Below are positions 18,991-28,582 of a stretch of 64,000 nucleotides of DNA, piece by piece. The stretch is taken from positions 703,806-767,805 of the forward strand of contig JAEPNP010000001.1 in assembly GCA_017643395.1 (NCBI GenBank). Reading direction: 5' to 3'. The notes beneath the pieces were generated by a model, which saw only the letters and a program-made list of their open reading frames with translations, ran no database searches and was not told the origin of the DNA. A program made the position numbers and the translations under genes. Source of the stretch: Rhodothermales bacterium. Lineage in GTDB: Bacteria > Bacteroidota > Rhodothermia > Rhodothermales > UBA10348. Positions within the stretch are counted from its first letter, which is position 1, and each line of letters begins with the position of its first letter.

Positions 18991-20106
18991 ATGCATCGAT
19001 CCATCCCCTGCCTGCTCGTCGCCGCGGTGCTGGCCGGCCCCGCCCTTGCCCAGACCCAGGGCTCGCGAAACGTGACCCTGGACAGCCACCTGCCGCTCCG
19101 TGCGCAGGGCGCAGCCGTTGCCGCAACCTTCGGCGCCCCCGACCGGCTGCTGTATGTGGCCCACGAGCGGGCTGTCAGCCTGATCGACATCGAGTCCCGA
19201 CAATCGGTGCTGCACTGGTCGGTCCCGGCACAGGTCAGCGGCCTGGCAGCGAGCCCATCGCTCGTGGCCGTGGCAACCGATGCTGGACTGCATTTTTTTG
19301 ACAACTCCGGGGCGGCGATGGACACCGCGGCCCTCGGTGAAGTCCGGGATGTCGCTGCCTACCGTCATTCAAACGGGTCGGTGTACTTCCTGGCAGCGAC
19401 GGCATCGCACATTGTGATGCTGGCAGGCCCGGAGAAAGAAGTGGGACGTGTGGCCGTTCCGACAGACGTGCCCAATCGGGACAACGGATTCCACGGAGTG
19501 TATGCGGCCTACGACCTCGGCACGGAGTCTGACAGGCTGTACGCGGCGGGGGGCGGCGGCTATTTCGTCTTCGATGTCACGAATCCGATGGAGCCCGCCC
19601 TGCTCACCTGGGTGAACTCCGCCGCGGTGCAGGTAGGGGTCGGAATCCAGGCCACGCCGGACGCGAGCCATCTGGTCACCTCCACCGGATATCGTTCCGC
19701 ACCCATCCGCATTTTCGACATCCGCCCGGCACTCGACGGGACCATTTCCCAGGTGCGCACCGCGGCAGGAGCCTGGACGGCAGACTGGCGCAGCCACGCC
19801 GAACAGTTCGAGGTGCGGTGGCCGTACGTTTTTGTAGCAGCTCAGGACCAGGGCATGGCGGTGTTCAACATGCGAAACGCATTTGAGCCCTACACCACCG
19901 CGTGGTTCAGGACCCCGGCTGCCGTGGACGTGGCCGTGCGAAACTCGGACGGACTTGTCGCAGTGGTCGATGCCGAGACCGGACTCTGGCTCGTGCGGGT
20001 CGAAGACTTCCGCGGCTGGGATGGCCGCGGCTGGGGTGTGGGCAACATCAGCTCCGTGCAGGACTGGATAAATGGCCCTGTGGGCGCAGACCGGTGGCAA
20101 CCATGA
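18991..20106 (+). CDS. LVIVD-repeat exported beta-propeller, divergent paralog (1 of 5)
   Basis: A 371-aa secreted protein with a signal peptide (about 1-20) and four to five LVIVD-type blades (FDVTNPMEP, IFDIRPAL, VFNM). It is the most divergent of five paralogs. The motifs GGFHN, YHD-Y, GHTFTP and HNHEVRWP of the other four are changed here to GFHG, YDLG, VGIQATPD and AEQFEVRWP, so most of the shared histidines are lost. The C-terminal WG...ISSVQDW motif is kept. The ATG at 18991 starts the signal peptide; the 18946 start is a TTG. Its TGA overlaps the ATG of the next paralog (ATGA), so it heads a coupled three-gene unit. Confidence 0.82.
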   Translation: MHRSIPCLLVAAVLAGPALAQTQGSRNVTLDSHLPLRAQGAAVAATFGAPDRLLYVAHERAVSLIDIESRQSVLHWSVPAQVSGLAASPSLVAVATDAGLHFFDNSGAAMDTAALGEVRDVAAYRHSNGSVYFLAATASHIVMLAGPEKEVGRVAVPTDVPNRDNGFHGVYAAYDLGTESDRLYAAGGGGYFVFDVTNPMEPALLTWVNSAAVQVGVGIQATPDASHLVTSTGYRSAPIRIFDIRPALDGTISQVRTAAGAWTADWRSHAEQFEVRWPYVFVAAQDQGMAVFNMRNAFEPYTTAWFRTPAAVDVAVRNSDGLVAVVDAETGLWLVRVEDFRGWDGRGWGVGNISSVQDWINGPVGADRWQP

Positions 20107-21476
20107 AACGACTTCTTGCGGCACTTCTGATCATGCCCGGGCCTGTGGTTGCACAGGTGGCCGTGGACCAGCCGTCCCACCCCCCTCCGCCAGGTGAGCG
20201 CGGCAGTGCCAACATGCATGTGGTGGCGCACGTCCCGCTTGGCGCAGCGGGTTCGATCTCCGATGTCGAGATCGAACAGGATCTGGACCGACCCTACGCC
20301 TATGTGGCCCGGCGCGTGGACGAAATCGGCTTTGACGTCATCGACCTGTCGGATCCGTTCAACGCGAGGGTGATCCATCGGTGGCGGATCGAAGACGAGG
20401 ATCTGCACTCGGGCGGTGCCATGGACGGCCGGTATTTCAAGCACGAGGGCCGCACCTACTACGTGCAGTCCATGCAGCTGAGACAGAGTGGGCCGAACTC
20501 CGACGTCGGAGCCGTGGTGTTCGATGTGACTGACCTGCCGGAACGCATGGTCGAGGTCGGTCGAATCCGCCAGCCGGATAACCCCGGTGGATTCCACAAC
20601 ACCTTCCTGTACAAGCACTCCAGCGGCAAGCCACTGTACGTGGCCACCTCCGGGCAGTATGCGAAGGTGTTCGACATGGACACCTTCCTGGATGGCGATC
20701 AGACGGAGATGGACCCGATTCTGCGCGATGCCAACCGCGCGCTGGTCGGCCGTATCCCGGTACCGCAAACCGAGAACCTGTGGTCGCGGGGCTACCATGA
20801 CTTCTACGTCGGGTATCACGCCGAAACCGGTACCGACCGGTTCTACGGCGGGGGCGGCTCGGGCTTTTATGTCTATGACATCACCGACCTGGGTAGCCCC
20901 GAACTGCTGGTGTCGATTGTCGGCGTGCCCGGCGTGTCCTGGGGACACACGTTTACTCCCACGCCCGACGGCAATTTTGCGGTCGGAGAGACGGAGTTCC
21001 AGTATCAGCCGTTGCGCATTTTTGACCTGCGGCCGGCTCTCGAAGGGGAGGACAAGAACATCGATGAGGCCGTCGGGGTGTGGCATGCAGACTGGAAAAG
21101 CCTGGCGCACAACCATGAGGTGCGCTGGCCCTTTGTCTTCGTCTCCGGCTACGAAAGCGGCCTGAGCGTCTTCAACATGATGGACCCCACCAATCCCTAC
21201 ACGGTGGGCTACTACGACACGTTCGACGGCGTGCATAATGACCGCATCGCCGCCATGGAGCGCCTCGGCAGCCCCTACACCTGGAATGTGTACGATGGGG
21301 CCTGGGGCGTCGACGTTCGCAACGCCGATGGGCTCATCGTCGTGAGCGACATGACCACGGGCTTCTGGGCCCTGAAAATGGACGGGTTCGACGGCTGGTA
21401 TGGCCCTGATTGGGGGCAGCCGGACGTGTCGAGCGCACAAGACTGGGACCGCGGTCCCTCCGGAGGAAACCAATGA
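20103..21476 (+). CDS. LVIVD-repeat exported beta-propeller (2 of 5)
   Basis: A 457-aa secreted propeller with a signal peptide (1-17). The repeated blade motifs (VIDLSDPFN, VYDITDLGSP, VFNMMDPTNP) identify LVIVD repeats. Histidine-bearing motifs GGFHN, YHDFY with a following GYH, GHTFTP and HNHEVRWP are intact and look like a metal or active-site cluster on one face, although that is inference. The C terminus carries the family motif WGQPDVSSAQ. It starts at the ATG overlapping the previous stop and ends overlapping the next ATG, with GGAGG 6-10 bases before that start. It may be involved in envelope copper or redox chemistry together with the multicopper oxidase at 26882-28582. Confidence 0.87.
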   Translation: MKRLLAALLIMPGPVVAQVAVDQPSHPPPPGERGSANMHVVAHVPLGAAGSISDVEIEQDLDRPYAYVARRVDEIGFDVIDLSDPFNARVIHRWRIEDEDLHSGGAMDGRYFKHEGRTYYVQSMQLRQSGPNSDVGAVVFDVTDLPERMVEVGRIRQPDNPGGFHNTFLYKHSSGKPLYVATSGQYAKVFDMDTFLDGDQTEMDPILRDANRALVGRIPVPQTENLWSRGYHDFYVGYHAETGTDRFYGGGGSGFYVYDITDLGSPELLVSIVGVPGVSWGHTFTPTPDGNFAVGETEFQYQPLRIFDLRPALEGEDKNIDEAVGVWHADWKSLAHNHEVRWPFVFVSGYESGLSVFNMMDPTNPYTVGYYDTFDGVHNDRIAAMERLGSPYTWNVYDGAWGVDVRNADGLIVVSDMTTGFWALKMDGFDGWYGPDWGQPDVSSAQDWDRGPSGGNQ

Positions 21477-22786
21477 GAGCTCTGATCCTGGTACTGGCCC
21501 TGGCCGTTGCGCTGCCCGCGTCCGGGCAGGTGCATGAGACCGAGCGTGGCACCGACAACATCGAAGTCATCGGTCACATCCCGCTCGGCAAGCGCCTCAC
21601 CGTCACCGACATCGAAATGGAGCAGGAGCTCGAGCGACCGTTTGTGTATGTCAGCCGGGCCTCCCTGGTGGATGGTGGACCGAAGGGCGTCGACATGATC
21701 GACATCTCCGACCCCGGCAATCCGCGTGTGCTGAAGCGCTGGCGCATCGAGGACAACGACCTGCACCTCAACCGGGGTGGCATGGACGTGAAGTACTTCA
21801 AATGGGAAGGCCGCTACTACATCGTACAGAGCTTCGAATTCAGTCAGGGTGGGCCCAACGCGGACCTGGGCGCCGTCATCTTTGATGTGACTTCCTTGCC
21901 GGATGCATCGGGTGTGCGGGAGGTTGCGCGTCTGCGTCACCCTGACGCACCCGGCGGCTTCCACAACATCTTTATCTACAAGCATTCGTCCGGGCGGGCC
22001 CTCCTGCTCACGACCACGCGCGGCGGCCCGGCGCATGTGTATGACCTCGGCCGGGCTGTGACGGGCGATGTAGATGGTGCCCTTGTCGGCACCGTGCCGA
22101 TTCCTTCCAGTGCGGCCGAGGGTGATCGGCGCACCTCCTACCACGACCTGTATGCCGGCTATCACCCTGACAGCGGGCAGGACCGGTTTTACGGCGGCGG
22201 TACCGGCGGGTACTACGTCTACAACATCACCGACATCGAGAATCCGACCTTGCTTGTATCGCTGATGGGCGTGCGCGGTGTCGATTGGGGACACACATTC
22301 ACACCGAGCGCGGACGGCCGCTACGTGGTGGCCGAGGTCGAGTACCGGTACGCACCGCTGCGCATTTTTGATTTGCAGCCGGCGCTTGATGGGGAGGTTC
22401 AGAACATCAATACGCCGATTTCGGCCTGGACCCACAACTGGGAGAACCTGGTGCACAACCATGAAGTGCGCTGGCCCTTTGTCTTCACGGCAGGGTATCT
22501 GGACGGTTTCGCCGTCTTCAGCCTCATGGATCCGGAGAATCCGCGCACGCTCGGCTACTACGACACCTACACCGGCCCCGAGAGCCACGACTTCATCCCG
22601 TACATCAACGGCGCGTTCGGCGTGGACGTGCGCAACGCGGACGGGCTGATCGTAGTGAGCGACATGACTACCGGCCTATGGACGTTCCGCATGGACGGCT
22701 TCAACGGCTGGAACGGCGAGGACTGGGGGCAGCCCGACATCTCCAGCGTGCAGAAGTGGGACGATCCGCCGCCGGGCACCAACTGA
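21473..22786 (+). CDS. LVIVD-repeat exported beta-propeller (3 of 5)
   Basis: A 437-aa paralog with a signal peptide (about 1-20). It carries the full motif set: MIDISDPGNP, GGFHN, YHDLY with GYH, YNITDIENP, GHTFTP, HNHEVRWP, and the tail WGQPDISSVQ then PPPGTN. Last gene of the coupled first unit (ATGA overlap with paralog 2, and a GGAGG ribosome site). Downstream is a 493-base stretch with tandem repeats, so the unit probably ends here. Sequence identity with paralogs 4 and 5 is visibly higher than with paralogs 1 and 2, which suggests recent duplication. Confidence 0.88.
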   Translation: MRALILVLALAVALPASGQVHETERGTDNIEVIGHIPLGKRLTVTDIEMEQELERPFVYVSRASLVDGGPKGVDMIDISDPGNPRVLKRWRIEDNDLHLNRGGMDVKYFKWEGRYYIVQSFEFSQGGPNADLGAVIFDVTSLPDASGVREVARLRHPDAPGGFHNIFIYKHSSGRALLLTTTRGGPAHVYDLGRAVTGDVDGALVGTVPIPSSAAEGDRRTSYHDLYAGYHPDSGQDRFYGGGTGGYYVYNITDIENPTLLVSLMGVRGVDWGHTFTPSADGRYVVAEVEYRYAPLRIFDLQPALDGEVQNINTPISAWTHNWENLVHNHEVRWPFVFTAGYLDGFAVFSLMDPENPRTLGYYDTYTGPESHDFIPYINGAFGVDVRNADGLIVVSDMTTGLWTFRMDGFNGWNGEDWGQPDISSVQKWDDPPPGTN

Positions 22787-22788
22787 GA

Positions 22789-22878
22789 GGCGCGGCGGCC
22801 GGGGTGGTCCCTGGCGCGGCGGTCGGCGGGCGCGGCGGCGTGGCGGTCGGCGGGCGCGGCGCGGCCTTTGGGGGGCGA
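22789..22878. repeat. GC-only low-complexity run
   Basis: Ninety bases almost without A or T, containing two imperfect copies of a GGCGGTCGGCGGGCGCGG unit about 24 bases apart. Non-coding. It sits directly before the 52-base tandem repeats. Confidence 0.7.
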
Positions 22879-23058
22879 AGGTTCAAAAGCATGCCCGGAT
22901 TCAACCTGTTGCGGCCGTTTCGGGGGGATTAGGTTCACAAACGGGCCCGGTTTCAACCTATTGCGGCCGTTTCGGGGGGATTAGGTTCACAAACGGCCCG
23001 GATTCAACCTATTGCGGCCGTTTCGGGGGATTAGGTTCTCAAACGGCCCTGGATTCCA
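22879..23058. repeat. tandem intergenic repeat, 3.5 copies of about 52 bp
   Basis: Units start with AGGTTC at 22879, 22931, 22983 and 23033 (periods 52, 52, 50), with the last copy partial. Each unit contains AAACGGCCCGGATTC, AACCT, TTGCGGCCGTTTCGGGGG and GATTAGGTTC. On the minus strand AGGTT and AACCT arms can pair, and copy 2 adds an AAAC/GTTT inner stem, so each unit can form a hairpin. The related repeat at 46938-47105 is aligned in the findings. The rest of the gap, 23059-23279, shows nothing recognisable. Confidence 0.8.
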
Positions 23059-23279
23059 TGTAAGCGGCGAATCGTCCGGGGCGGGGTGGCCTTTGAGGGA
23101 GACACCGACAACGCCTTTGCATGGTCTGCGTAGCCGCGACGGGGATCCCAAAGCCGTCGCTGGCCCGGCTTGGGGGCACGACGTACGGGATTCCACCACA
23201 CGCACACGCGGGACGACCCCGACTGTAGCGACACGTCATGACAAGTAGGCTTGGGGACACCAAACCCAACACCCCCGTC

Positions 23280-23486
23280 ATGAAGAAGAATATGGGCACC
23301 ATTGATCGCATCGCTCGCGTCCTGGTGGCCGTGCTCGTCGTCGTCCTCTACCTGACCGACCAAATCACCGGCACGGCCGCACTCATCCTTGGAGCCTTGG
23401 CGACGGTCTTCGTCCTGACCAGCCTCGTCGGGACGTGCCCGCTCTATATGCCGCTGGGACTGTCCACGACTGCAAAGTCGGAATAG
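23280..23486 (+). CDS. DUF2892 inner-membrane protein
   Basis: A 68-aa protein with two membrane helices (about residues 11-30 and 34-52) and the DUF2892 pattern: N-terminal MGTIDRIAR and the C-terminal GTCPLYMPLG. Related domains form the membrane part of YgaP-type rhodanese proteins, but here the domain stands alone with no rhodanese. The Cys of the GTCPLY motif is kept. It starts at the ATG at 23280, not the upstream 23238. A clear terminator follows, so it is a separate transcript inside the LVIVD region. Confidence 0.85.
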   Translation: MKKNMGTIDRIARVLVAVLVVVLYLTDQITGTAALILGALATVFVLTSLVGTCPLYMPLGLSTTAKSE

Positions 23487-23512
23487 CCACGGCTTCCTCC
23501 TGGTTGGAGTCG

Positions 23513-23543
23513 GGGTCGCCGGCGTCCTCGACCCTCTTTTTTT
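23513..23543 (+). terminator. rho-independent terminator after the DUF2892 gene
   Basis: Stem GGGTCG (23513-23518) / CGACCC (23529-23534) with a 10-base loop, followed after TC by seven T (23537-23543). It lies 27 bases after the DUF2892 stop. Confidence 0.75.
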
Positions 23544-23655
23544 GGAACTTTCGCCGCGACCCGTGCCTCATCGTACATTCATGGCTGCCCGACAGGCATA
23601 CCCTGACCGCTCCGTCCGGAAGACGCACCCCTGACAGAGCAAACCGCACCCACCG

Positions 23656-25005
23656 ATGAAGCACCTTCTTCTGGTGGCCGCCCTTTTCGTGGCGGCCCTG
23701 CCTGCGCTCGCGCAAAACGATACGCCGTGGACTCCGCTCAAGCCCGGCACCGACAACATCACGGTCGAGGCTCATGTGCCGCTCGGACCGCTGTTCAGCG
23801 TGATGGACATCGACCTCGAGCAGGAAATGAGCCGTCCCTACGCCTACGTGTCCCGCGGCACGCTCGGCGAGTCCATCGAGCGCGGCACGGACATCATCGA
23901 TATTTCCGACCCGTCGAACCCGCGCGTCGTGCATCGCTGGCGCATCGAAGACCAGGAGCTCCATGCGGGGCTCGGGGGCATGGACGTCAAACATTTCAAG
24001 TGGGACGGCCGCTACTATGTGGTGCAGTCGCTGCAGTTTGCTCCGGGACCGAACGTCGACCTCGGCGCGGTCATTCTCGACGTGACCGACCTGCCGGACG
24101 GTGACTCGGTACGCGAGGTGGCCCGCATACGCGCCCCCGACATGCCGGGCGGCTTCCATAACATCTTTATCTACAAGCACTCCAATGGCCGGGTGCTGCT
24201 GATCACGACGGTCAACGGCGGGCAGGCCAACGTTTACGACATGGGTCTGGCCGTTTCGGGCGATGTGGATGACGCTCTGATCGGCACGATTCCCGTGCCT
24301 GGCCCGAACTCCCGGACCACCGGTAACTCGGTGTCGGCGGGCTTCCTCTTCTACCACGACCTCTACGCGGCCTTCCACCCGGACACCGGTCAGGACCGCT
24401 TCTACGGCGGTGGTGCCGGAGGCTACTACATCTTCGACATCTCGGACATCGAGAATCCGGAGCTCGTCATCACGGTGACCGGCGTGCGCGGCGTGCCGTG
24501 GGGCCACACATTCACGCCGAGCCCGGATGGTCGCTGGGCGGTCGGCGAGACGGAATACCAATACGCTCCCCTGCGCATTTTCGACCTCAAACCGGCGCTC
24601 GACGGCGAGGTCACGAACATCAACCGATCGATCTCCGCCTGGACCCCCCACTGGAAAAACCTGGCACACAACCACGAGGTGCGCTGGCCCTACGTGTTCG
24701 TCTCCGGCTACCACGACGGCCTGCAGGTCTTCACCCTGATGGACCCGCACAACCCCAAGACGGTGGCCTACTACGACACGTACACCGGTCCCCGTGATGT
24801 GGGCGTGATGGGTGGTGCCGTAGGCAACGGCGCCTTTGGCGTGGACGTGCGCAATGCCGATGGGCTCATCGTCATCAGTGACATGTCAACCGGTTTCTGG
24901 ACGTTCCGGATGGAGGGTTTCCAGGGCTGGAACGGCGAGGATTGGGGGCAACCCGACATATCGAGCGCCCAGAAGTGGGACGAGCCGCCTCCGGGCACCA
25001 ACTGA
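23656..25005 (+). CDS. LVIVD-repeat exported beta-propeller (4 of 5)
   Basis: A 449-aa secreted paralog: signal peptide 1-20, then LVIVD blades (IIDISDPSNP, FDISDIENP, VFTLMDPHNP) with intact GGFHN, YHDLY...FH, GHTFTP and HNHEVRWP motifs and the tail WGQPDISSAQ then PPPGTN. Compared with paralog 3 it has a short insertion before YHDLY (a Gly/Asn/Ser loop). It heads the second unit, followed 27 bases later by paralog 5. A terminator upstream (23513-23543) means it needs its own promoter, which I did not find with confidence. Confidence 0.88.
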   Translation: MKHLLLVAALFVAALPALAQNDTPWTPLKPGTDNITVEAHVPLGPLFSVMDIDLEQEMSRPYAYVSRGTLGESIERGTDIIDISDPSNPRVVHRWRIEDQELHAGLGGMDVKHFKWDGRYYVVQSLQFAPGPNVDLGAVILDVTDLPDGDSVREVARIRAPDMPGGFHNIFIYKHSNGRVLLITTVNGGQANVYDMGLAVSGDVDDALIGTIPVPGPNSRTTGNSVSAGFLFYHDLYAAFHPDTGQDRFYGGGAGGYYIFDISDIENPELVITVTGVRGVPWGHTFTPSPDGRWAVGETEYQYAPLRIFDLKPALDGEVTNINRSISAWTPHWKNLAHNHEVRWPYVFVSGYHDGLQVFTLMDPHNPKTVAYYDTYTGPRDVGVMGGAVGNGAFGVDVRNADGLIVISDMSTGFWTFRMEGFQGWNGEDWGQPDISSAQKWDEPPPGTN

Positions 25006-25032
25006 TCAGCCACCAGCAACGAGGACATTGCC

Positions 25033-26346
25033 ATGAAACGCATTCTGACGCTGGCCGTGCTGACCACGGCCCTGACCCTGCCCGCCACCGCACAATGGAC
25101 GCCTGAGAAACCGGGCAGCGACAACATCGAAGTGCTGGGGCACATTCCGCTCGGCCCGATCCTGAGCGTAGCCGACATCGACATGGAGCAAGAAGTCCAT
25201 CGTCCGTATGTCTACGTCTCCCGCATGGTGTACGGCTGGGATGGCCCGAAGGGCACTGACATCATCAGCGTGGCCGACCCGGCGAGCCCTGAGGTGATCT
25301 ACCGGTGGCGCATTGAGGACCAGGACCTGCACCAGCGCACGGGCGGCATGGACGTGAAGCACTTCAAGTGGAACGGCCGCTATTACGTAGTCCAGTCCCT
25401 GCAATTCGGCTCCGGCGGGCCCAACAATGACCTGGGCGCGGTGGTGCTGGATGTAACCGGCCTGCCGGACGCATCCACGGTGCGTGAGGTTGCCCGCATC
25501 CGCGAGCCGGAACTGCCGGGCGGCTTCCACAACATCTTTGTGTACAAGCACTCCACGGGGCGCGTCCTGCTCCTTTCGACCGTGTCGGGACCGTTTGCGC
25601 ACGTCTATGACCTCGGCCACGTGGTCGAGGGCAATCTGGACCAGGCGCTTGTCGGCCGAATCCCGAACCCACAGGAGGGCCGGCGCGGCTACCACGACTT
25701 CTACGCGGGCTTCCACGTTGACACTGGCCAGGACCGCTTCTACGGAGGCGGCACGGGTGGCTACTACGTGTACAATTTCACCGACATCGAAAACCCGCAA
25801 CTGCTCGTCACCCTGACCGGCATCTCGGGCGTGCGTGGCGGACACACGTTTACGCCCGGCCCGAACGGCCGGTACGTGATCGCCGAAACGGAGTACCGCT
25901 ATGCGCCGCTACGCATCTTCGACCTCCAGCCGGCGCTTGAGTCGGAGGGCTCCGATGTACCGAACATCAACCAGCCCATCGGCGCCTGGACGGCCGACTG
26001 GCAGAACCTGGTGCACAACCACGAGGTGCGCTGGCCCTATGTGTTCGTGTCGGGCTACCTGGACGGACTGCAGGTCTTTTCCATGATGGATCCGGAGAAC
26101 CCGGTCACGGTGGCCTACTACGACACCTATCTCGGCGGTCGCGTAGAGGGCCGAACGGGCGAATTCAACGGGGCGTTCGGTGTCGACGTGCGGAACGAGG
26201 ATGGCCTGATTGTCGTCAGTGACATGTCCACAGGCTTCTGGACCTTCCGCATGGACGGATTCAAGGGCTGGAAAGGCACCGATTGGGGCGTGCCCGACAT
26301 TTCCAGCGCCCAGAAGTGGGATGACCCACCGCCAGGCACAAACTGA
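25033..26346 (+). CDS. LVIVD-repeat exported beta-propeller (5 of 5)
   Basis: A 437-aa secreted paralog with a signal peptide (1-17), the full histidine motif set (GGFHN, YHDFYAGFH, GGHTFTP, HNHEVRWP) and the tail WGVPDISSAQ then PPPGTN. It lies between paralog 4 (27 bases) and the 174-aa secreted protein (9 bases), which is followed by the multicopper oxidase. All four are therefore likely cotranscribed and sent to the same compartment. This operon position is the best evidence that the propellers and the oxidase share a job. Confidence 0.88.
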   Translation: MKRILTLAVLTTALTLPATAQWTPEKPGSDNIEVLGHIPLGPILSVADIDMEQEVHRPYVYVSRMVYGWDGPKGTDIISVADPASPEVIYRWRIEDQDLHQRTGGMDVKHFKWNGRYYVVQSLQFGSGGPNNDLGAVVLDVTGLPDASTVREVARIREPELPGGFHNIFVYKHSTGRVLLLSTVSGPFAHVYDLGHVVEGNLDQALVGRIPNPQEGRRGYHDFYAGFHVDTGQDRFYGGGTGGYYVYNFTDIENPQLLVTLTGISGVRGGHTFTPGPNGRYVIAETEYRYAPLRIFDLQPALESEGSDVPNINQPIGAWTADWQNLVHNHEVRWPYVFVSGYLDGLQVFSMMDPENPVTVAYYDTYLGGRVEGRTGEFNGAFGVDVRNEDGLIVVSDMSTGFWTFRMDGFKGWKGTDWGVPDISSAQKWDDPPPGTN

Positions 26347-26355
26347 CCTCTACGC

Positions 26356-26880
26356 ATGCTGCTCTCGCTGCTTGCCGCACTTCTGATCGGCTCCGCTGCT
26401 GCGGCTCCTCCTGCTGAATGCCACATCGGCGACGACCCGCCGCCGTACTACGCCATCGACCTGGTCACCACCAAGAAGGTGCCAGGCGCGCGTTTGGCTA
26501 CAGGCACGGCCGATGTGGTCTTCGCCCGCTCCCCGTTCGGCATTGCCCTGACACCGGAAGGAGAGTACATCTACGAGCTGCGCATCAAGGTGGACAAGCT
26601 GCGTCCGGCTCGGTCGGGGAAGTATGTGGCGTGGGTCACGACCCCGTCACTCGACGAGCGGCGGCGACTCGGCGCACTGGATGAGAACCATCAGGTGACC
26701 GGACGCGTGGACTGGAACAAGTTTCTCGTGGTAGTGACGCTGGAGGAGGACGAAGCCGAAGGCGCCGCCACGTGGGAGGGCCCTGTGGTGGTGCGCGGCA
26801 TGTCCCGGTCCGGGTTCATGCATACGCAGGCCGGCCATGGACCCTTCGAGACCGAACCCTGCGCGGTTTACGGATACTAG
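26356..26880 (+). CDS. small secreted protein between LVIVD and multicopper oxidase genes
   Basis: A 174-aa protein with a signal peptide (about 1-17) and a beta-rich body with one Cys near each end. The stretch around residues 75-135 (YVAWVTTPS, LGALD, FLVVVTLEEDE, GPVVVRG) loosely recalls the sandwich domain of RskA-type anti-sigma factors and related envelope proteins. This is a weak fold-level impression with no sigma-binding part. It starts 9 bases after paralog 5 and ends 1 base before the oxidase start, so it is firmly inside that operon. It may be a partner or chaperone of the oxidase. Function unknown. Confidence 0.75.
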   Translation: MLLSLLAALLIGSAAAAPPAECHIGDDPPPYYAIDLVTTKKVPGARLATGTADVVFARSPFGIALTPEGEYIYELRIKVDKLRPARSGKYVAWVTTPSLDERRRLGALDENHQVTGRVDWNKFLVVVTLEEDEAEGAATWEGPVVVRGMSRSGFMHTQAGHGPFETEPCAVYGY

Positions 26881-26881
26881 C

Positions 26882-28582
26882 ATGCCTCGACTGATCGGCT
26901 GCCTGCTGGCGGCCCTGCTCGTGCTGCCCGCAACGGGGCAGGACCACCACATGCACCATGGTCACGATTTGGGGGCCATGCAGGGCGACAGCCTTGTCTG
27001 GCGCATGGTACCCATGGACATGTCGATGCCCATGTTGCCGGGACTCGAGACCGCCGTTCCTGTGGTCGGTCCGTGGCTGGCGGGCACCGGCATGGACCTC
27101 ATGACGATTCCGGAAGGACGTCCCAGGGAAGTCGTGGAGATGAACGATGGGGATACGCTCCACCTCGAGGCTTCGCTGATCCGCAGGGAGATCGGTGGTC
27201 AGACGGTGGTGATGTACGGATACAACGGACAGTATCCGGGTCCGCTTATTCGGGCTGAGCGGGGCTCCGAAGTGACGGTGCACTTCACCAACAACATCGA
27301 AATGCCGACCACCGTGCACTGGCACGGGTTGCGACTGGATAACGCGTTCGACGGCATTCCCGGCATGACCCAGCCGCCGGTCATGCGGGGCGAGTCCTTC
27401 ACGTACCAGCTCAAGTTTCCCGACACGGGCATCTACTGGTACCACCCACACATGCGGGAAGACATCCAGCAGGACCTCGGGTTGTACGGCAACATGCTCG
27501 TCGACCCCGACGTGGAGGCGTACTACAACCCCGTAACCCGGGAGGAAGTGCTGATCCTGGATGACCTGTTGATGGACGATGCGGGTATCCTGCCCTATGG
27601 CGACGAGTCCCCGACACACGCCTTGATGGGCCGTTTCGGCAACGTCATGTTAACCAACGGCCGCACCGACTACAGCCTGGATGTACCACGTGGCGGCGTC
27701 GTGCGGTACTACATCACGAACGTCGCGAACTCCCGCACTTTCAATGTGGTGTTCGATGGGGCCCGCGCCAAGATTGTCGCTTCAGACGTCTCCAAATTCG
27801 AGCACGAGGAGTTTGTGCCCAGCGTCGTGATTGCGCCTGCCGAGCGGTACGTCGTCGAAGTCCATTACCCCGAGAGCGGCGAGTTCGCCATCCGCAATTC
27901 GGTGCAGGCCATCAACCACTTCCGGGGCGTGTTTTACCCGGAAGAGCATCACTTGGCGACGGTCCAGGTGGGTGACGCTGCGGCGGACCCGGGTGCTGCC
28001 GCGGCCTTTGCGGAGTTGCGGACAAACGATGACGTCACCGGCGACATCGACGCCTATCGGGACCAGTTTGACCGCCAGCCCGACCATACGCTGGAACTCA
28101 CCGTGCGCGTGGACGGCCTTCCCTTGCCCATCGTTCGATCCATGGAGATCGACACACTCTACGTGCCGCCCATCGAGTGGAACGATGCGATGCCCATGAT
28201 GAACTGGCTCTCCAGCGCTGAGCAGGTGGAGTGGGTCATTCGCGATCTGGATACCGGTCGCGAAAACATGGACATCAACTGGGACTTCGGCGTCGGAGAC
28301 GTCGTCAAGATTCGGGTGTTCAACAACCCGAAGTCATTCCACCCGATGAATCACCCCTTCCATGTGCACGGTCAGCGCTTTCTGGTGCTGGACATGGATG
28401 GCGTACGGAATCCGAACCTGGTCTGGAAGGACACCGCCATCGTCCCGGTCGGATCGACCATGGACCTGTTGGTGGACATGTCGAATCCCGGGGACTGGAT
28501 GGCGCACTGCCATATTGCGGAGCACCTGCACGCCGGCATGATGCTTGGCTTCCGGGTGGTCGAAGGAGACCGCAGCCAGTAG
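26882..28582 (+). CDS. secreted multicopper oxidase
   Basis: A 566-aa laccase-like oxidase with a signal peptide (about 1-18) and a His/Met-rich start (HHMHHGH). All four copper motifs are present: HWHG near residue 145, HPH near 187, HPFHVHG near 490 and HCHIAEHLHAGMM near 540. The type 1 axial ligand position is Met, as in CueO/CotA-type enzymes. It oxidises a substrate (Cu(I), another metal or phenolics) and reduces O2 to water in the periplasm or at the surface. Met-rich stretches (MVPMDMSMPM) near residues 40-50 favour a copper link, but no cuprous-oxidase Met helix is certain. Last gene of the LVIVD unit. The start is the ATG 1 base after the upstream stop. Confidence 0.93.
   Translation: MPRLIGCLLAALLVLPATGQDHHMHHGHDLGAMQGDSLVWRMVPMDMSMPMLPGLETAVPVVGPWLAGTGMDLMTIPEGRPREVVEMNDGDTLHLEASLIRREIGGQTVVMYGYNGQYPGPLIRAERGSEVTVHFTNNIEMPTTVHWHGLRLDNAFDGIPGMTQPPVMRGESFTYQLKFPDTGIYWYHPHMREDIQQDLGLYGNMLVDPDVEAYYNPVTREEVLILDDLLMDDAGILPYGDESPTHALMGRFGNVMLTNGRTDYSLDVPRGGVVRYYITNVANSRTFNVVFDGARAKIVASDVSKFEHEEFVPSVVIAPAERYVVEVHYPESGEFAIRNSVQAINHFRGVFYPEEHHLATVQVGDAAADPGAAAAFAELRTNDDVTGDIDAYRDQFDRQPDHTLELTVRVDGLPLPIVRSMEIDTLYVPPIEWNDAMPMMNWLSSAEQVEWVIRDLDTGRENMDINWDFGVGDVVKIRVFNNPKSFHPMNHPFHVHGQRFLVLDMDGVRNPNLVWKDTAIVPVGSTMDLLVDMSNPGDWMAHCHIAEHLHAGMMLGFRVVEGDRSQ

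Follow-up and report, generated by a model that had tools for sequence, protein, structure and literature searches.

The cluster of genes between positions 18991 and 28582 of the 64,000 nucleotide stretch analysed here (the window, from contig JAEPNP010000001.1 of a Rhodothermales bacterium) encodes five exported-looking beta-propeller paralogs, a small secreted protein that we call P6, and a multicopper oxidase (MCO). The propeller, P6 and MCO genes are a conserved three-gene unit that is found across several bacterial phyla. Two things are new relative to an earlier note on this DNA: P6 is a fusion partner of MCOs, and one MCO accompanies many propellers. The genes are the following (all on the forward strand).

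18991 to 20106, forward strand: propeller paralog 1, 371 amino acids (aa); divergent, 33% identical to paralog 4
20103 to 21476, forward strand: propeller paralog 2 (C2), 457 aa; all four histidine motifs, 58% identical to paralog 4
21473 to 22786, forward strand: propeller paralog 3 (C3), 437 aa; all four histidine motifs, 67% identical to paralog 4
23656 to 25005, forward strand: propeller paralog 4 (C4, P0004), 449 aa; all four histidine motifs
25033 to 26346, forward strand: propeller paralog 5 (C5, P0005), 437 aa; adjoins P6 and MCO, 69% identical to paralog 4
26356 to 26880, forward strand: P6, small secreted beta-sandwich protein, 174 aa; MHTQAGHG tail, two conserved cysteines
26882 to 28582, forward strand: MCO; three Pfam Cu-oxidase domains, Met-rich N-terminus

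Of 197 confirmed relatives the best 80 were kept; they gave 77 related loci (numbered L below), in which distant relatives are under-sampled. All 77 are titled as metagenome-assembled genomes (MAGs), so the system resides in largely uncultured bacteria, and their titles include Rhodothermales, Bacteroidetes, Gemmatimonadetes, Acidobacteria and Gammaproteobacteria MAGs, among others. The three genes stand together in 56 of the 77 loci, 9 are without this association and 12 are too short to judge; an unlinked locus needed at least 4 kb of downstream sequence and a linked one was counted at any length, which tilts the tally somewhat toward linkage. Where a single propeller stands with P6 and MCO, its best match in the window is always paralog 5. 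The gene order is P6-MCO-propeller-propeller in L129, with linkage retained, and in L012 eight propellers stand beside a single MCO.

Three phylum-wide genome surveys (genomes numbered G; E-value cut-offs of 1e-50 or 1e-80 for the propeller and 1e-60 or 1e-100 for the MCO) gave a similar picture. In the phylum of the window's own genome, 6 of 148 genomes have the propeller, these 6 and no others have P6 and MCO, and the genes are adjacent in all 6. The phylum of L060, a locus titled Longimicrobiales, has the propeller in 46 of 121 genomes, all 46 of which also have P6 and MCO matches, and the propeller is within 6 kb of the MCO in 41 of the 46 (part-length MCO matches of under 400 bits, which are halves of split matches, were left out of this count except in G267). 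The phylum of L083, titled Acidobacteria, has the propeller in 8 of 149 genomes; P6 and MCO are also present in 6 of the 8, and always adjacent. When the three surveys are pooled (418 genomes), 60 genomes have the propeller and 76 the MCO, with 58 having both, 2 the propeller only, 18 the MCO only and 340 neither; the Fisher probability of this co-occurrence is 3e-52, a figure that is uncorrected for kinship among the 418 genomes and hence a guide only. Fifty-three of the 60 propeller bearers have a propeller within 6 kb of the MCO, and three of four genomes checked that have an unlinked propeller copy carry P6 elsewhere. The earlier note had made linkage of such propeller genes to an MCO in other genomes one of the tests of its proposal, and that linkage is strong both in the 77 loci and in the three surveys.

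Within the window, each of the five propeller paralogs has a signal-peptide-like N-terminus (judged by eye). Paralogs 1 to 3 are coupled through ATGA overlaps (20103-20106 and 21473-21476), and 27 bases separate paralog 4 from paralog 5, 9 bases paralog 5 from P6 and 1 base P6 from the MCO. The gene coordinates, signal-like starts, overlaps and 27-base spacing bear out the earlier description of five exported paralogs beside a small secreted protein and an MCO, and the shared motifs quoted at that time are all found in paralogs 2 to 5. The MCO, which is 566 aa long if its start is the ATG at 26882, has the complete copper motifs attributed to it, HWHG, HPH, HPFHVHG and HCHIAEHLHAGM. The 869-base gap between paralogs 3 and 4 contains a small YgaP-like membrane-protein gene and short repeats, so no single transcription unit is claimed for the cluster. 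Imperfect 52-base tandem repeats occupy positions 22867-23056 of this gap.

The tie between P6 and the MCO is most direct where the two are one gene. P6-MCO fusions are present in genomes G000, G030 and G085 and in 9 further frames, and this gene fusion marks P6 as an MCO partner. In all 17 genomes of the L060 phylum that have P6 but no propeller, P6 is found only in frames of 726-1046 aa, and in 16 of the 17 there is an MCO match in a frame of equal length (G202 is the exception). The tie of P6, the presumed adaptor, to the oxidase is visible in fused genes, some of them in propeller-free genomes. We note that the window's own genome also has a P6-MCO fusion (L105, 7688-9745) beside an amidohydrolase gene (Pfam) and uvrB (by eye); the pairing of fusion and amidohydrolase (L105, 6232-9745) is seen by eye in L108 and L119 as well, with no propellers adjoining.

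Free P6 proteins close to that of the window mostly end in an MHTx(A/V)GHG tail, which is present in 56 of 59 free P6 rows and in 0 of 9 fused ones, a count that covers mostly close relatives of the window P6. The three misses include L129, with MHTMMGHG, and L130, whose free P6 is more distant and is without the tail. The conserved cysteines C22 and C169 may form a disulphide. P6 itself has no Pfam match; 9 of 36 P6 relatives touch RskA_C (best E 0.0012), and the Cu,Zn superoxide dismutase (SOD) family is absent among the 9 Pfam families matched at E<=1 by these 36 members. The P6 structural model has a predicted local distance difference test score (pLDDT) of 82.4, with a poor tail. VIA-align comparison of the model gave 48 Cu,Zn SODs or SOD copper chaperones among the 50 rows listed, the top match being 6flh (Z 8.6, 103 residues, root-mean-square deviation 3.1, 12% identity), and a Foldseek search of the same model gave nothing at E<=0.001. 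This fold match is borderline and says nothing of function, but a fold of this kind would suit a copper-handling or docking role.

Pfam Cu-oxidase, Cu-oxidase_2 and Cu-oxidase_3 all score above cut-off in the window MCO, and its Met-rich N-terminus is conserved. The best named NCBIfam models are CueO (160 bits against a cut-off of 525) and CopA (135 against 479), both far under cut-off. The window MCO shares three domains and the same copper motifs with the CueO, CopA and laccase MCOs, but falls under the CueO and CopA cut-offs and differs in that P6 is adjacent or fused to it. In L033, L035, L038-L041 and L043-L045 a second MCO gene is found a few kb away from the module and reads in the other direction, and it carries a P6 domain in all of these loci but L044, where it is split.

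The AlphaFold2 model of paralog 5, made with an 87-sequence alignment (mean pLDDT 93.7; predicted TM-score, pTM, 0.90), is a seven-bladed propeller whose inner strands begin at residues 46, 104, 168, 220, 273, 328 and 381. The blades and the histidine register were taken from DSSP strand starts in this model; a blade-to-blade profile alignment did not reach across the histidines. In the model H166, H221, H271 and H328/H330 are at most two residues from the inner-strand starts of blades 3 to 6. Seven histidines have at least 97% conservation (in 134 rows, with all P0001-like and P0003-like members left out), and five of them are no more than two residues away from where an inner strand begins, a zone that holds 8% of all positions; the chance of this is about 6e-5, by a test that was picked after the data had been seen. 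The inner-strand starts of propeller blades encircle one end of the central channel, so the four histidine motifs should meet on the axis. The earlier question whether they meet in one pocket is answered in part: by the topology of the model they occupy equivalent places on four consecutive blades. With the model as basis, the four histidine motifs of consecutive blades likely form one axial metal site, and the propellers are likely to be metal-dependent enzymes.

The four-histidine set is complete in 192 of the 221 propeller members with at least 300 aligned residues (three of 224 rows were too short to count). Of the 29 members with an incomplete set, 20, among them window paralog 1, are encoded by the first gene of a multi-propeller locus and two are cut by contig ends; some first-gene paralogs have a complete set. 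Window paralog 1 has R-H-V-F at the positions of paralog 5 residues 166/221/271/330, so that three histidines are lost and H221 is kept, and its nearest relatives in L009 and L010 keep none of the four; from these residues it is a probable pseudoenzyme. Five paralogs in genome G169 have H330 replaced and H328 retained, so the fourth metal ligand may be H328.

The propellers belong to no named family at curated thresholds. The LVIVD label given to them by the earlier note is a weak one: 51 of 87 family members match LVIVD (PF08309) at E<=1 (best 1.7e-8), but the window proteins are under the Pfam cut-off (paralog 4 scores 19.2 bits against 20.2, and paralog 2 has E 0.36). Paralogs 2-5 score 40-56 bits against the NCBIfam choice-of-anchor B model (TIGR04312), whose cut-off is 100. 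These weak hidden Markov model matches place the window proteins in the same broad repeat superfamily, and both family names were dropped because the proteins score under both curated cut-offs. No function for the LVIVD or choice-of-anchor B families turned up in the literature searched. SBP56 is absent among the 19 Pfam families matched at E<=1 by the 87 members, and no SBP56 chain is among the 10 PDB sequence matches at E<=10, so membership in the SBP56/methanethiol oxidase family was rejected. The carotenoid cleavage oxygenase (CCO) family, which we take to be the one that Pfam names RPE65, is likewise absent among the 19 families, and membership there was also rejected by sequence. Paralog 4 alone found nothing better than E 0.29 among PDB sequences, and paralog 5 had no match in a plasmid collection. 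By fold, the PDB matches of the propeller model are mainly WD40-type and other eukaryotic propellers (fold only); SBP56 and CCO structures are outside the best 50 rows of either fold search, which, with best rows only, is uninformative on kinship. In a quick, unrefined tree of 181 propellers, in which long branches meet, the propellers next to P6 do not group as a single clade (11 changes for 52 rows, against a shuffled mean of 45).

The arrangement here is reminiscent of two known propeller systems. PMC5739008 and PMC10362175 describe the bacterial methanethiol oxidase (MtoX) gene as sitting with SCO1/SenC copper chaperone and MauG-type genes, for which a role in maturation is proposed. Methanethiol oxidase/SELENBP1/SBP56 resembles the window system in its seven-bladed propeller, conserved histidines and copper-type partner genes (PMC5739008, PMC10362175), and differs in that the partners there are SCO1 and MauG and here are P6 and an MCO. 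The sites proposed for SELENBP1 are HxxH and HH motifs with Asp and Glu, whereas here there is one histidine motif per blade. Of the link to methanethiol oxidase drawn by the earlier note, the similar design holds; no sequence kinship was found in the Pfam and PDB searches, and the analogy between the window propellers and that enzyme is one of design only. In carotenoid/lignostilbene cleavage oxygenases, according to PMC6097328, four histidines hold the iron of a seven-bladed propeller, to which the seven blades and four histidines in blade register here (AlphaFold2 topology) would correspond; the differences are the lack of a Pfam match in 87 members and the exported-looking, MCO-linked nature of the window proteins.

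Some propellers have other neighbours. Away from the MCO, a C3-type propeller is directly upstream of a Gfo/Idh/MocA oxidoreductase with a Tat-like start in L063, L064 and L080 (Pfam in L063 only), and in L027 (8699-11320) a propeller is directly downstream of a Rieske dioxygenase-like subunit (by eye). Genome G169 (L111-L118) has 14 propeller matches in 2.6 Mb and one MCO match; some of these propellers adjoin SusD and TonB-receptor genes (by Pfam, L114 has a TonB receptor with SusD, L118 a plug-domain receptor with SusD, and L115 a SusD). The propellers beside nutrient importers or the Gfo/Idh/MocA oxidoreductase suggest that the propeller copies are enzymes for different nutrients.

The reading that we favour, and hold tentatively at somewhat less than an even chance, is that the propellers are secreted metalloenzymes with a four-histidine site, and that a P6-MCO pair common to them either supplies the metal or takes electrons from it. 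That many propellers go with one MCO speaks for such a shared service role rather than a fixed 1:1 complex. The predicted fold, the places of the histidines along it, their conservation, the three-gene linkage, the P6-MCO fusion and the distribution of the tail are observed. We infer in this scheme the histidine convergence, the metal, the substrate, the direction of electron or metal transfer and the contact between tail and propeller. The propellers would be secreted seven-bladed metalloenzymes with a single metal, most likely copper and possibly iron, bound on the axis by histidines that come together from blades 3, 4, 5 and 6. This metal would act on small organic compounds, either in the periplasm or outside the cell. 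P6, with its SOD-like domain, would dock on the MCO and extend its MHTxAGHG tail to the propeller. The MCO, whose reaction would end in O2 reduction, would either oxidise and load the propeller metal or withdraw electrons after turnover. Duplicated propellers would come to have differing substrate ranges, and paralog 1, its site lost, would be a structural or regulatory subunit. A broader proposal is possible but doubtful: the propellers would represent a new class of secreted enzyme with copper or iron bound by four histidines, and P6 and the MCO would be devoted to loading this cofactor or keeping it oxidised, with one pair per paralog family.

A number of observations weigh against the metalloenzyme scheme. 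Counted by gene copy in the L060 phylum, 47 of 76 propeller matches are within 6 kb of an MCO; no MCO is near the 14 propellers of G169; G152 has a propeller without a P6 match, and the propellers of G305 and G373 are without P6 or MCO matches (genome incompleteness is possible). The P6 fold match is borderline (Z 7-8.6), and the best Foldseek row, at E 5e-3, is to non-SOD folds. Confidence in the P6 model is lowest at the tail, and many free P6 proteins of the L060-phylum survey score 84-150 bits in matches that often break off before the end of the tail; with L130 lacking the tail and distant free P6 matches stopping short, it is not general. The only significant PDB sequence matches of the propellers are, moreover, chains of a hydrolase.

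Four other explanations were weighed against the metalloenzyme scheme. In the first the system handles copper: the MCO would act as a cuprous oxidase, and the propellers and P6 would not be enzymes but would buffer or donate copper in the periplasm. The identity of the best named MCO models (CueO at 160 bits and CopA at 135, though far under cut-off), the conserved Met-rich N-terminus of the MCO and the somewhat SOD- or SOD-chaperone-like fold of P6 agree with it. No flanking-gene family recurs in over 15 of the 77 loci, however (by frame clustering in which most clusters are unnamed, so copper-resistance genes are possible among them), paralogs adjoin nutrient-importer genes and a sugar-type oxidoreductase, and the strong multiplication of propellers would be needless for a buffer; we regard this explanation as unlikely. 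Just as unlikely, in our estimation, is that the MCO is the main, laccase-like enzyme and the propellers are subunits that bind substrate or provide a scaffold, any metal in them being structural. The complete motifs of the MCO, the many propellers per MCO and the retention of paralog 1 in the operon despite three of four histidines missing would all fit, but the near-invariant blade-start histidines with nearby conserved acids have the pattern of a catalytic site, and some propellers have no adjoining MCO.

The propellers could also be metal-dependent hydrolases akin to the haloalkylphosphorus hydrolase of Sphingobium TCM1, with the MCO acting later in the pathway. The chains of this enzyme are the sole PDB sequence matches at E<0.01 (5hrm, 7e-4; 5ioj, 1.5e-3), and it shares the propeller fold at Foldseek rank 2 (E 5e-11, 16% identity). 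The sequence match is short and repeat-level, covering about 30 residues of repeat motif, the Foldseek TM-score is 0.42, and a hydrolase gives no reason for near-constant MCO company, so we consider this quite improbable. Chance neighbours or passive hitch-hiking, which a single locus by itself could not rule out, are very improbable given adjacency in 6 of 6, 41 of 46 (within 6 kb) and 6 of 8 propeller-bearing genomes of three phyla, the altered gene order with linkage retained in L129, and the P6-MCO gene fusion.

The putative propeller-P6-MCO redox system appears to be undescribed, no description having turned up in literature searches on LVIVD, choice-of-anchor B and MCO-propeller operons. 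To our knowledge many multicopper oxidases have no known natural partner, and the tight and widespread pairing gives the MCO and the propeller each a testable one. If the MCO does mature or re-oxidise the propeller metal, there would be a second way of doing what SCO1 and MauG are proposed to do beside methanethiol oxidase (PMC5739008).

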